In this document: piece by piece, positions 10,732 through 22,063 of the stretch | Layout of the letters: every line of letters starts with the position of its first letter | Numbering within the stretch: position 1 is the first letter of the stretch | Translations under genes and position numbers: made by a program | Assembly: GCA_902782125.1 (NCBI GenBank) | Contig: CACZMA010000002.1 | Coordinates: 1 to 64,000 of the forward strand | Source of the DNA: Oscillospiraceae bacterium | GTDB taxonomy: Bacteria; Bacillota; Clostridia; Saccharofermentanales; Saccharofermentanaceae | Direction: 5' to 3' | Length of the DNA: 64,000 nucleotides | Notes under the pieces: generated by a model | Told to the model about the DNA's origin: nothing | What the model saw: only the letters and a program-made list of their open reading frames with translations | The model's database searches: none

Positions 10732-11490
10732 ATGCTTAAGATCGCGATATACGGCAAGGGCGGAATAGGAAAGTCGACCATGACATCCAATCTGTCGGCA
10801 GCGTTTGCAAGCCTAGGTAAGAAGGTCATCCAGATAGGGTGTGACCCCAAGGCTGATTCTACGATCAATCTGTTAGGCGGAGTACCGTTGAAGCCCGTTA
10901 TAGAGATCCTCAGGGAAGGCGGAGAACCAACTTCCATCGAAGAGATCTCCAAGAAGGGATTCGGCGATATCCTCTGCATAGAGACAGGCGGTCCCACACC
11001 GGGTCTCGGATGTGCGGGAAGAGGCATCATCGCGACTTTCAATCTCCTCGATGAACTGGGATTATTCGAATCCTATAAGCCTGACGTCGTACTCTACGAT
11101 GTCCTGGGCGACGTTGTCTGCGGAGGTTTTGCAGCACCCATAAGGGAAGGATACGCTGAGCAGGTCCTGATCGTTACTTCCGGTGAGAAGATGGCGCTGT
11201 ATGCTGCGAACAACATCTGCATGGCGGTAAAGAATTTCGAGGACAGAGGATATGCGCATGTGGGCGGCATCATCCTGAACAAGAGGAATGTAGTAGGAGA
11301 AGAAGAGAAGGTCGAGGCTTTCGCCGAAGACAAGGGCATAGACATCATCGCGAGGATCCCCAGAAGCGACGATATCACGAGATGCGAAGACGTCGGAAAG
11401 ACCTGCGTGGAAGGCGCACCGGAATCGGATGCTGCAGTGGAGTTCGTAAAGCTTGCAAAAAAGCTCCTTGATGAGGAAGGTTCAAAGTGA
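10732..11490 (+). CDS. NifH-like Fe protein (nitrogenase-like reductase ATPase)
   Basis: This is a homologue of the nitrogenase Fe protein, an ATP-driven [4Fe-4S] electron donor. The 252-residue protein has the P-loop GKGGIGKS (8-15), the CDPKADST switch region (37-44), and both cluster cysteines in good context: C94 (GGPTPGLGCAGRGI) and C130 (VVCGGFAAPIR). It is shorter than true NifH (about 275-295), closer to BchL/CfbC and other divergent members. The start is ATG 10732, with GAGGAG upstream; an earlier TTG at 10690 is rejected. It is first in an operon that carries two NifD/NifK-like pairs, so one Fe protein may serve both. Confidence 0.9.
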   Translation: MLKIAIYGKGGIGKSTMTSNLSAAFASLGKKVIQIGCDPKADSTINLLGGVPLKPVIEILREGGEPTSIEEISKKGFGDILCIETGGPTPGLGCAGRGIIATFNLLDELGLFESYKPDVVLYDVLGDVVCGGFAAPIREGYAEQVLIVTSGEKMALYAANNICMAVKNFEDRGYAHVGGIILNKRNVVGEEEKVEAFAEDKGIDIIARIPRSDDITRCEDVGKTCVEGAPESDAAVEFVKLAKKLLDEEGSK

Positions 11491-12800
11491 GAAGAGAAGC
11501 TGTCACATATACGGCAAAGCAGGTCGCAGAACTTGGCAGGGACAACATTCCTTCCGAGCTTCTGAGCGGACAGGGACTGGTATACAGTTCGCCTGCTACG
11601 CTTGCTTATAATTCACCGGGAGCAGAAGGTTTCGGCGTAAAGCGTGCGGGCCTGTCCGTACCGGAGTCGGTCATGCTCATCGTATCGCCCGGCTGCTGCG
11701 GAAGGAACACATCTATAGTCAGCTCGATGCCCCAGTACGAGGACAGGTTCTTCTATCTTCTGATGGATGAGACCGACCTTGTAACCGGAAGACATCTTAC
11801 CAAGATACCGGATGCCGTCAGCGAGGTAGTGTCCTTCCTGGAAGGACAGGGCAAAGCCCCGAGAGTCGTCATGATCTGCATCACCTGCGTCGATGCGCTG
11901 CTCGGTACCGACATGGAAAGAGTATGCAACGCATGCGAAGCGAAGATCGCCGACACCGGGATAAGAGTCCGTCCCTGCTATATGTATGCGCTCACGAGGG
12001 AGGGAAGAAGGCCGCCGATGGTTCATGTCAGGCAGACCCTCTACTCACTTCTCGCTCCCATGGAAAAGGATCCGAGATCGGTCAATCTGATCGGCAATTT
12101 TGCTCCCATGGCAGAGGGCGAACTGCAGAGATATCTCCTCGAAGCCGGTGTAAAGAACATAAGACAGATTGGGGCATGCGGAACCTACGATGAGTTCCTC
12201 AAAATGGCCTCCGCAAACTTTAACATTGTTACAAATCCCGAAGCCAGGGCATCTGCGGACGATATGTCGAGAGAATTAGGCATCCCTTACATCGAACTTA
12301 CGAGGGTCTACGGCATTCGTCAGGTCGCTCTTCAGTACCAGGCGCTCGCTCAGGCGGCCGGGATAACGATCGATCTTGCAGACGACAAACAAGAAGCCGA
12401 GCAGGCCGTCTTCGATCTCAGGGAAAAGTATCCGGATCTGACTTTCAACATCGGCGAATGTATAAATGCTGATCCGTTCGAGCTGGCTTTGTCGCTCCTG
12501 AGATACGGATTCAAAGTTGACGAGATCTATGCGACTCTCGCACCGGAGAAATTCAGATACGTCGCCAAGATCGCCGAACTCTCGCCCGATACGAAGATCT
12601 ACTGCAACATGGAGCCGACAATGCTCTATTACGATGTGTCCTCGTCCCGCGCACACATAAGCCTCGGCAAGGATGCGGCATACTACTGCCCTGACATACC
12701 CAATGTCGCATGGAACGAAGATGTCCAGCCGTTCGGGTTCCAGGGGATAAAAGAACTTATGGCAAGGATAGACAGAGCACTCGGGGAGGTGACGGCATGA
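11487..12800 (+). CDS. NifD-like nitrogenase component 1 subunit (first pair)
   Basis: This 437-residue protein belongs to the nitrogenase component 1 family (NifD/NifE/BchN). It starts at GTG, overlapping the NifH-like stop by 4 bases. Cysteines at the expected cluster positions are C70/C71 (VSPGCCGRN) and C134 (ICITCVDALLGTD, the CxxGLxGDD-like site). No Cys aligns with the first P-cluster ligand of NifD. Near the C-terminus, VQPFGFQGIKELM resembles the region holding the FeMo-cofactor His ligand (PYHGFDG), but Phe replaces His. A true nitrogenase active site is therefore unlikely. It probably forms a heterodimer with the next gene product. Confidence 0.85.
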   Translation: MRREAVTYTAKQVAELGRDNIPSELLSGQGLVYSSPATLAYNSPGAEGFGVKRAGLSVPESVMLIVSPGCCGRNTSIVSSMPQYEDRFFYLLMDETDLVTGRHLTKIPDAVSEVVSFLEGQGKAPRVVMICITCVDALLGTDMERVCNACEAKIADTGIRVRPCYMYALTREGRRPPMVHVRQTLYSLLAPMEKDPRSVNLIGNFAPMAEGELQRYLLEAGVKNIRQIGACGTYDEFLKMASANFNIVTNPEARASADDMSRELGIPYIELTRVYGIRQVALQYQALAQAAGITIDLADDKQEAEQAVFDLREKYPDLTFNIGECINADPFELALSLLRYGFKVDEIYATLAPEKFRYVAKIAELSPDTKIYCNMEPTMLYYDVSSSRAHISLGKDAAYYCPDIPNVAWNEDVQPFGFQGIKELMARIDRALGEVTA

Positions 12801-20868: not shown

Positions 20869-22063
20869 CGATACACCGTCAGGAGAGAGGATCCACATCG
20901 GTTTCTTCGGAAGAAGGAACGCGGGCAAATCAAGTCTTGTAAACAAGATCACGAACCAGGATCTTGCCGTGGTGTCTGACACCAAAGGAACGACGACGGA
21001 TCCTGTCACGAAGGCGATGGAACTCCTGCCTCTGGGACCTGTTGTCATCATCGATACTCCGGGCTTCGACGACGAGGGAGAACTCGGAGAGAAGAGGATA
21101 TCGAAGACGCGTCTGATCCTTAACCGCGTCGATGTAGCTGTGCTCGTGGTGGACCTCGTGGAAGGCATGGGCAAGACCGAGGAGCAGTTGATAAAGCTTT
21201 TCGACGAGAAGCTGATACCGTACATAATCGCGTTCAACAAAGCAGACCTCAGGGAGACCATCCCCGCGGTGAAGACAAACGAGATATACGTAAGTTCCCT
21301 GACCGGAAAGAACATAGACGAACTCAAGGAGATGATCGGAAGGCTCGGCGCACATAAACAGGAAGCAGCACCTCTGATAAGCGATCTCATCTCAGCCGGA
21401 GATACGGTCATCCTCGTGATCCCGATCGATTCTTCCGCGCCCAAGGGAAGGATAATCCTGCCGCAGCAGCAGGTCTTAAGAGAGATTCTGGACAGTAATG
21501 CCACGGCTTACATCACGCAGGTCGAAGAGCTCGCCGGAGTCATCGCAAATCTTAAGAGCAGGCCTAAGCTCGTCGTAACGGACAGCCAGGCTTTCGGCAG
21601 GGTCTCGAAGATCGTTCCGGAAGACATACTACTTACTTCGTTCTCGATACTCATGGCGAGGCACAAAGGTTTCCTGAGGAGTGCCGTGCGTGGCGTCAGG
21701 GCGATCGACGGTCTTGCTGACGGAGACAAGGTGCTCATATCCGAGGGTTGCACACACCACAGACAGTGTGAGGACATCGGAACATACAAGATCCCCAAGT
21801 GGCTCGGCGAATATACAGGCGCCAGGGTCACGATCGACACGACTTCCGGGCTGTCCTTTGCCGACGACCTGTCCGGGTACAAGATGATCATTCACTGCGG
21901 TGCATGCATGCTTAACGACCGAGAGGTAATGTACCGCGCGAAATGCGCAGAGGACGCAGGCATCCCCATGACCAACTACGGCATCGCCATCGCCCACATG
22001 CACGGCATCTTAAGACGGAGCCTCGGCGTATTCCCGGATATCCTGAGCGAACTCGATCGCTGA
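20858..22063 (+). CDS. hydF: HydF, [FeFe]-hydrogenase maturation GTPase and scaffold
   Basis: HydF receives the di-iron subcluster precursor and delivers it to the hydrogenase apoprotein. The 401-residue protein has the GTPase domain (P-loop GRRNAGKSS at 18-26, DTPGF at 66-70, NKAD at 127-130), a dimerisation domain (about 180-260), and the cluster-binding domain with C298-x-H300 and H346-C347-x2-C350. All key residues are present. It ends the operon; no hydE or hydG, its usual radical-SAM partners, lie in the window, and no terminator is obvious before the next gene. Confidence 0.96.
   Translation: MSLNDTPSGERIHIGFFGRRNAGKSSLVNKITNQDLAVVSDTKGTTTDPVTKAMELLPLGPVVIIDTPGFDDEGELGEKRISKTRLILNRVDVAVLVVDLVEGMGKTEEQLIKLFDEKLIPYIIAFNKADLRETIPAVKTNEIYVSSLTGKNIDELKEMIGRLGAHKQEAAPLISDLISAGDTVILVIPIDSSAPKGRIILPQQQVLREILDSNATAYITQVEELAGVIANLKSRPKLVVTDSQAFGRVSKIVPEDILLTSFSILMARHKGFLRSAVRGVRAIDGLADGDKVLISEGCTHHRQCEDIGTYKIPKWLGEYTGARVTIDTTSGLSFADDLSGYKMIIHCGACMLNDREVMYRAKCAEDAGIPMTNYGIAIAHMHGILRRSLGVFPDILSELDR

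Follow-up and report, generated by a model that had tools for sequence, protein, structure and literature searches.

An eleven-gene operon of nitrogenase-like, Hyp and Hyd genes

The window analysed here is a 64,000-nt stretch of an Oscillospiraceae bacterium genome (contig CACZMA010000002.1, positions 1 to 64,000), and its positions 10732-22063 hold a predicted operon in the order nifH-D1-K1-hypF-hypC-hypD-hypE-TM1266-D2-K2-hydF, which we consider as a candidate maturation system for [FeFe]-hydrogenase. As an earlier note on this DNA had proposed, all eleven genes lie on the same strand, and an open reading frame (ORF) check finds every one of them intact:

10732..11490, + strand: NifH-like ATP-dependent reductase, 252 residues (PF00142, 7e-90; P-loop GKGGIGKS)
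11487..12800, + strand: D1, NifD/NifE-like, 437 residues, GTG start
12797..13735, + strand: K1, short NifK/NifN-like, 312 residues (nifE profile, 3e-4)
13735..16014, + strand: hypF, carbamoyltransferase (TIGR00143, 4e-223, over cut-off)
16017..16229, + strand: hypC, chaperone/scaffold (TIGR00074, over cut-off)
16226..17275, + strand: hypD, iron-unit scaffold (TIGR00075, 3e-108, over cut-off)
17272..18276, + strand: hypE, thiocyanate-forming protein (TIGR02124, 5e-124, over cut-off; C-terminal PRIC)
18286..18540, + strand: TM1266-like iron-only hydrogenase system protein (TIGR03959, 6e-31, and PF21699, 7e-29, both over cut-off)
18524..19822, + strand: D2, second NifD-like protein, 432 residues
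19819..20868, + strand: K2, second NifK-like protein, 349 residues (PF00148, 3e-21)
20858..22063, + strand: hydF, H-cluster maturation GTPase (TIGR03918, 3e-163, 543 bits against a cut-off of 326; both HydF-specific Pfam domains)

The names that the earlier note gave to HypF, HypC, HypD, HypE, TM1266 and HydF stand, as the respective models exceed their family cut-offs. Its statement that nearly all neighbours overlap by 1-17 bases holds at eight of the ten junctions (nifH/D1 -4, D1/K1 -4, K1/hypF -1, hypC/hypD -4, hypD/hypE -4, TM1266/D2 -17, D2/K2 -4 and K2/hydF -11, with the hypF ATG at 13735 placed within the K1 stop codon) and fails at the remaining two, which are gaps of 2 (hypF/hypC) and 9 (hypE/TM1266) bases. 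Scans for promoter-like and terminator-like sites were uninformative, with 6 against 9.7 in shuffled sequences for the former and 9 against 8.6 for the latter. Neither HypA nor HypB is encoded among the eleven genes; no genome-wide search was made for them.

The NifH-like protein matches the nifH, CfbC, bchL and BchX models and exceeds none of their cut-offs (316 bits against 394, 308 against 402, 211.6 against 345 and 211.3 against 331, respectively). The only NCBIfam matches of D1, K1 and K2 are to nitrogenase families and lie far under cut-off (the best for D1 is nifE, at 61 bits against 505), D2 matches no NCBIfam family, and PF00148 exceeds its Pfam cut-off for every member of the two pairs except K1. 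In predicted AlphaFold2 models D1 and D2 adopt the nitrogenase fold, with no substrate indicated, and the pairing of D1 with K1 is supported by two loci (L029 and L067) in which both are fused in one open frame of about 770-820 residues.

Residue conservation was counted over relatives aligned from the fetched loci described below. C94 and C130 of NifH are invariant in 104 aligned rows, and by NifH numbering we take them to be the [4Fe-4S] ligands. D1 keeps four cysteines (C70, C71, C131 and C134), K1 has invariant C37 and C42 (74 rows), D2 keeps C52, C56, C117 and H119, and K2 keeps C37 at 98% (60 rows); these residues would fit interface Fe-S clusters of the kind found elsewhere in the superfamily. 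K2 also keeps H32 and H44 at 97-98% and H324 at 100% in the same rows. The cysteine of LLCHRSINY in 9p1x, presumably the cofactor-ligating cysteine of the alpha chain, stands opposite a gap in a D1 profile alignment of low identity. Among the maturation proteins, C2 and H45 of HypC, the CGTHTH, GPGCPVC and C-terminal cysteines of HypD (76 rows each), the C-terminal C334 of HypE (70 rows) and C298, H300, C304, C347 and C350 of HydF (25 rows) are invariant, and because its active residues are kept in this way the Hyp set looks catalytically whole. HypF carries an acylphosphatase-type GIVQGVGMR, four CxxC motifs and HHYAH, which we take to have their customary roles.

Recurrence of the gene order

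A K1 search of genome contigs returned at least 469 confirmed relatives, the best 80 of which underlie the locus counts given here. Judged by record title, the relatives cover rumen genomes, Saccharofermentans among them, and also Blautia, Roseburia faecis, Coprococcus and Eubacterium ramulus, as well as Clostridium ljungdahlii, C. carboxidivorans, Sharpea azabuensis and Coriobacteria. In 67 of the 80 loci the core nifH-D1-K1-hypF-hypC-hypD-hypE runs unbroken along a single strand; K1, as the query, is bound to be present in this count, and loci in which it has no frame apart from D1 are included. Ten of the other 13 loci lie on short contigs or at contig ends, two (L013 and L056) have a split D1 frame, and one (L023) ends after hypF, with hypD on a different contig of its genome (G081, taken to be the same genome as G402, as G088 is with G427, because identical matches stand at identical places).

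A BLAST search of the fetched stretches, many of them truncated, found TM1266 in 47, D2 in 64, K2 in 62, hydF in 27, hydE in 15 and hydA in 3 of the 80, and hydG in none. Two nifH genes are present in 31 loci, the second adjoining D2K2 in the gene orders displayed, which suggests two complete ATP-driven reductases. Two loci, L020 and L053, show hydA-nifH-D1-K1-hypF-hypC-hypD-hypE-D2-K2-hydF-hydE in one direction (with TM1266 between hypE and D2 in L020), and neither of their genomes (G079 and G098) has HydG over cut-off; in L002 nifH is preceded, at a distance of about 0.6 kb, by the end of a hydA that shares 98% identity with the one in the window's genome. The same order recurs in dozens of genomes, so the arrangement is more than chance, and the conserved co-occurrence that the earlier note had suggested looking for is found: the genes are neither confined to this genome nor unlinked in relatives. 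At E 1e-20 the K1 profile matches 3999 of 7997 scored proteins, and the names among 120 listed matches are "nitrogenase component 1", other nitrogenase labels or "hypothetical protein".

HydE-bearing relatives hold either HydG or the operon

The window's genome (G000; 2.14 Mb, 97.8% complete) encodes one [FeFe]-hydrogenase, of group A6 (NF040763 over cut-off, locus L001), with TSCSPGW, MPCTAKKFE and MGCPGGCINGGGQP, which we take to be its H-cluster motifs. HydE is encoded at G000:C4:300641 (TIGR03956, 561 bits against a cut-off of 255), and this same gene is the sole match to the HydG model, scoring 75.9 bits where the cut-off is 312. Across 79 relatives, a set that includes the window's genome and 47 genomes of its genus in all, HydG exceeds its cut-off in 28 and the operon is present in 18, with both in none. 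HydE is over cut-off in 45 of these genomes, 28 with HydG and 17 with the operon, and in none with neither or both. Within the genus, 18 genomes have HydG, 18 the operon and 11 neither system; HydE is found in 17 of the 18 operon genomes and over cut-off in none of the 11. Fisher tests give p = 8e-6 for the genus and 9e-13 for the HydE-bearing genomes, values uncorrected for relatedness.

The genomes of 37 of the 80 loci were searched for HydG, which is over cut-off in one of them, that of C. thailandense (G083). Of 391 genomes sampled across the class, 10 carry canonical K1 (E below 1e-100), six of them belonging to the window's genus, and HydG occurs in 0 of these 10 against 237 of the 381 others (p = 7e-5, uncorrected). 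hydA was over cut-off in 52 of 52 genomes searched, including all 37 of the other operon genomes.

Several other readings of these matches were considered. That all K1-like matches represent the same system was rejected, 10 of 20 class-level hits being distant relatives in other clusters. A diverged HydG overlooked by the model was likewise discarded: the same model still matches at about 1e-13 to 1e-24 (read as HydE) in 36 of 37 genomes and, because it already picks up such HydE-level matches, a HydG should have shown. Substitution by ThiH was set aside for G000, where at E 1e-3 the HydG model finds nothing besides HydE. Matches to this model at about 1e-53 to 1e-64, below cut-off, occur in 15 of the 37 other operon genomes and are taken for ThiH, and a functional HydG analogue of another family is possible in operon genomes. 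In the class sample, most HydG matches group in two E-value bands, one of about 1e-139 to 1e-214 and one of 1e-232 to 1e-290, perhaps marking separate HydG subfamilies. Eleven genomes of the genus have hydA over cut-off with no operon and no HydG or HydE over cut-off (G004, G009, G011, G013, G018, G020, G027, G029, G038, G043 and G044), and the same holds for nine outside it, of the same order (G050, G051, G060, G063, G066, G071, G074, G075 and G078).

Closely related HydE proteins with different partner systems

A HydE tree was built by a quick method from 80 rows, comprising 44 from the relatives, not chosen by system, and 36 from other operon genomes, chosen for the operon. It excludes G030 (split HydE), the second G014 copy, and G032 and G106 (no HydE match); for G079 the copy used differs from the one beside its operon, and the program warns of long branches. 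The system switches 10 times on the best tree, with five switches forced by well-supported branches, and neighbours such as G041/G036, G024/G006, G005/G006 and G019/G007 have HydE proteins 86-91% identical and different partner systems. The independent pairs run in opposite directions in 5 of 5 cases (p = 0.06), too few pairs for p to reach 0.05. Specialisation of HydE to its system was considered and rejected, as no alignment column separates the two kinds in a mixed 14-row clade; the most skewed column over 79 singly labelled rows differs by 52 percentage points. With no change seen in HydE between systems, the product of the operon should enter at or before HydE.

The client of the Hyp proteins

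HypD is found in exactly 21 of the 79 relatives, namely the 18 operon genomes and three with a match to the [NiFe] large subunit, and within the genus it is present in all 18 operon genomes and in no others. The [NiFe] large subunit (PF00374) is matched in none of the 47 genus genomes, G000 included, and the Hyp proteins of the genus are therefore without their classical client; service of a [NiFe]-hydrogenase by the operon was rejected for the genus on this ground. A single HypD is found in 34 of the 37 other operon genomes.

Hyp-free variant clusters

Five class-level genomes (G183, G255, G339, G476 and G484) encode relatives of D2 and K2, 38-40% and 36-41% identical, and have no HydG, HypD or canonical K1. 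Their loci (L117, L120, L123, L125 and L126, with nifH listed in four of the five genomes) lie near hydE (L117, L123 and L126), hydF (L123 and L126) or a TM1266 domain (L120, L125 and L126). Domain searches, run on parts of four of these loci, find a complete iron-complex-type importer (Peripla_BP_2, FecCD and ABC ATPase) in L117, L123 and L126 and an ABC ATPase fused to a TM1266-like domain in L120 and L126. The Hyp-free cluster may bring in a ligand or an iron complex destined for the H-cluster and, more speculatively, the D2K2 module could be the common part, with the Hyp/D1K1 module replaceable by import.

A further five genomes (G186, G254, G261, G291 and G378) encode distant D/K proteins without hyd neighbours, and four of them have HydG. 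The corresponding loci (L118, L119, L121, L122 and L124, with nifH listed in four of five and no hyd genes nearby) are probably clusters of another nitrogenase-like enzyme; all except L124 adjoin an importer that, by position and likeness, is apparently of the same kind.

A proposed HydG-free route to the H-cluster

We interpret the operon as a HydG-free maturation system for [FeFe]-hydrogenase, to which we give a probability of about 0.8 on genomic grounds, and it very likely replaces HydG as such. Replacement is argued by the 45 HydE genomes, each with exactly one of the two systems, by the rarity of HydG in the other operon genomes and the class sample, and by the switches in the HydE tree together with close HydE neighbours that differ in partner. 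An [FeFe] client is indicated by the confinement of HypD to operon genomes in a genus without the [NiFe] large subunit, and further by the one-direction hydA-to-hydE rows of L020 and L053, by hydA upstream of the operon in L002 and by hydA in 37 of 37 other operon genomes. C. ljungdahlii supports replacement from the side of activity, since its sole active hydrogenase is reported to be the orthologue of HytABCDE1E2 of C. autoethanogenum (PMC6203783), Hyt is described as an electron-bifurcating [FeFe]-hydrogenase (PMC9004356), and the genome carries the operon (L037, from G091) and no HydG over cut-off. The earlier note's proposal of a new metallocofactor assembly system thus gains support from the occurrence of the operon where HydG is missing and HydE is kept, and its question of which hydrogenase accompanies the operon is answered by a complete [FeFe] domain in operon genomes, save for five incomplete genomes of the genus. 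The assembly system looks new, and the cofactor is most likely the known H-cluster.

In the mechanism that we propose, HypF and HypE would convert carbamoyl phosphate to cyanide carried on the C-terminal cysteine of HypE, and the HypC-HypD scaffold would hold iron. NifH would drive D1K1, whose genes adjoin hypF in the fetched loci, to deliver electrons of very low potential, most likely for reduction of CO2 or another one-carbon source to CO at HypCD, the exact reaction being a tentative assignment. D2K2, sometimes with its own NifH and with linkage to hydE or hydF, would act in a later step that passes on or reduces the unit for HydE, and HydE and HydF would then finish and insert the unit bearing CO and CN. 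For these families it is established that carbamoyl phosphate is the source of the cyanide formed by HypF and HypE, and that the iron unit sits on HypC-HypD. Reduction of CO2 to CO is put at about -530 mV with ATP needed, in a paper that describes the origin of CO in anaerobic Hyp systems as unresolved (PMC12134894). As a whole, a second, tyrosine-independent biosynthesis of the H-cluster, in which HypEF cyanide and nitrogenase-like CO are joined on iron at HypCD and a second enzyme converts the product for HydE, is a plausible proposal at slightly under even odds.

Points against and alternative explanations

Several observations weigh against a HydG-free maturation system. Hyp proteins yield Fe(CN)2CO for [NiFe] enzymes and HydG yields Fe(CO)2CN, from tyrosine, so that extra chemistry would be required; this mismatch may be the reason for two reductases. 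C. thailandense carries both systems. hydA is carried by 61 of the 79 relatives, and 20 of these 61 have no HydG, operon or HydE over cut-off, so lack of HydG alone is no proof of a substitute. In the genus hydA was not seen in three of the 18 operon genomes (G022, G041 and G042) and is only a fragment in two more (G024 and G025), all five being at most 91% complete; it was also not seen in 2 of 28 HydG genomes (G035 and G040). Within the genus, operon genome G032 (89% complete) lacks HydE, and outside it operon genome G106 gave no HydE-like match. From a sequence motif, a study of acetogens credits C. autoethanogenum, C. drakei and C. scatologenes with a HydG (PMC9431212), species that lay outside our HydG searches; C. 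drakei carries the operon (L044) and C. scatologenes its K1 (P0043). These results leave our odds as they were, because the pattern behind the claim is that of the HydE-bearing genomes.

The acetogen study predicts one group 1a [NiFe]-hydrogenase in each of eight Clostridium acetogens (PMC9431212), some of which have the operon, so that Hyp may have two clients in these species, which is a further point against our proposal. Together with HypCDEF matches that all exceed their family cut-offs, this speaks for Hyp genes that mature a [NiFe]-hydrogenase with the nitrogenase-like and hydF genes as mere neighbours; yet the genus has 18 genomes with the operon and its HypD and none with PF00374, hypA and hypB are not among the eleven genes, the Hyp core of other genera is likewise accompanied by D2, TM1266 and HydF, and the only active hydrogenase of C. 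ljungdahlii is reported to be Hyt-type (PMC6203783), so that we regard this explanation as very improbable. A different organometallic cofactor for another enzyme, with genomes that lost HydG simply happening to gain the operon, would sit well with D1K1 and D2K2 belonging to no named NCBIfam family and having a predicted reaction only, and with the 20 hydA-bearing relatives that manage without either system. It is quite unlikely given the distribution of HydE, present in 17 of 18 genus operon genomes and over cut-off in none of the 11 with neither system, and given HydF and TM1266 inside the operon and the adjoining hydA, hydE and hydF of L020 and L053.

The operon might instead aid H-cluster synthesis without being the source of CO and CN, the ligands coming from elsewhere (free CO and cyanide, or another enzyme) and the nitrogenase-like pairs only reducing or repairing a maturase. 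In vitro activation by HydE and HydF alone, at about 1% (PMC9431212), and the Hyp-free variant cluster of five HydG-less genomes are compatible with such a role, which we consider unlikely because a full HypCDEF set with intact active residues points to cyanide synthesis and G000 shows nothing besides HydE in the HydG-model search at E 1e-3.

Neighbouring genes

Just 5' of the operon, window positions 9089-10101 hold a hicA-hicB toxin-antitoxin pair (PF07927 and PF05534) and a helix-turn-helix regulator (PF01381), and 7750-8736 encodes a protein whose weak HEPN (RiboL-PSP) match falls short of the family cut-off. On the 3' side of hydF, positions 22148-25707 encode a GH25 lysozyme-like protein, a membrane protein of the DUF308 family and an aldo/keto reductase that carries a ferredoxin-type domain.

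Relation to known systems and significance

The proposed system shares with the HydE-HydF-HydG system HydF (in the operon), HydE (elsewhere in the genome), the TM1266-like protein and the [FeFe]-hydrogenase client, and differs from it in the absence of HydG, the source of Fe(CO)2(CN) from tyrosine. With HypA-F [NiFe] maturation it shares HypF, C, D and E with their conserved active residues, whereas the genus has no [NiFe] large subunit and the operon lacks hypA and hypB and contains nitrogenase-like genes. NifEN/NifDK, DPOR/COR, CfbCD and methylthio-alkane reductase likewise combine a NifH-type ATPase with partners of the same fold, and the kept cysteines could hold an interface cluster as they do; unlike these, the proteins here fall below every equivalog cut-off met, K1 has only 312 residues, and two D/K pairs stand with Hyp genes in one operon.

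A close precedent is the 2022 study of acetogens, in whose accessible text hydG was not found in five of eight species (C. carboxidivorans, C. ljungdahlii, C. sp. AWRP, C. coskatii and C. ragsdalei) and HypCDEF without HypA/HypB is reported in five of eight (C. autoethanogenum, C. ljungdahlii, C. coskatii, C. sp. AWRP and C. ragsdalei); the two gaps are left unconnected there, an atypical HydG or free ligands are offered as reasons for the missing hydG, and in the accessible main text the word "nitrogenase" appears once and NifH never (PMC9431212). Tyrosine-derived ligands are described in that study as made through HydG, and all five CO and CN ligands of the H-cluster come from tyrosine according to the title of PMC3105041. 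The accessible part of a transposon study says nothing on the operon genes (PMC9004356), and the full-text literature, coverage of which leaves out most subscription journals, yielded no account of the operon or of a HydG-free H-cluster pathway.

In the proposed pathway, unrelated enzymes would take over the ligand-forming step of a known cofactor. If correct, it would explain [FeFe] maturation without HydG in C. ljungdahlii, Blautia, Roseburia, Coprococcus and many rumen Clostridia. Many HydG-less gut and rumen bacteria with an iron-only hydrogenase carry the operon or a close variant. By record titles, its relevance extends over human gut, rumen and industrial acetogenic bacteria. A HydG-free route would change how hydrogenase capacity is read from genomes, would place a tractable low-potential enzyme beside HypCD, and would give a new toolkit for making hydrogenases.

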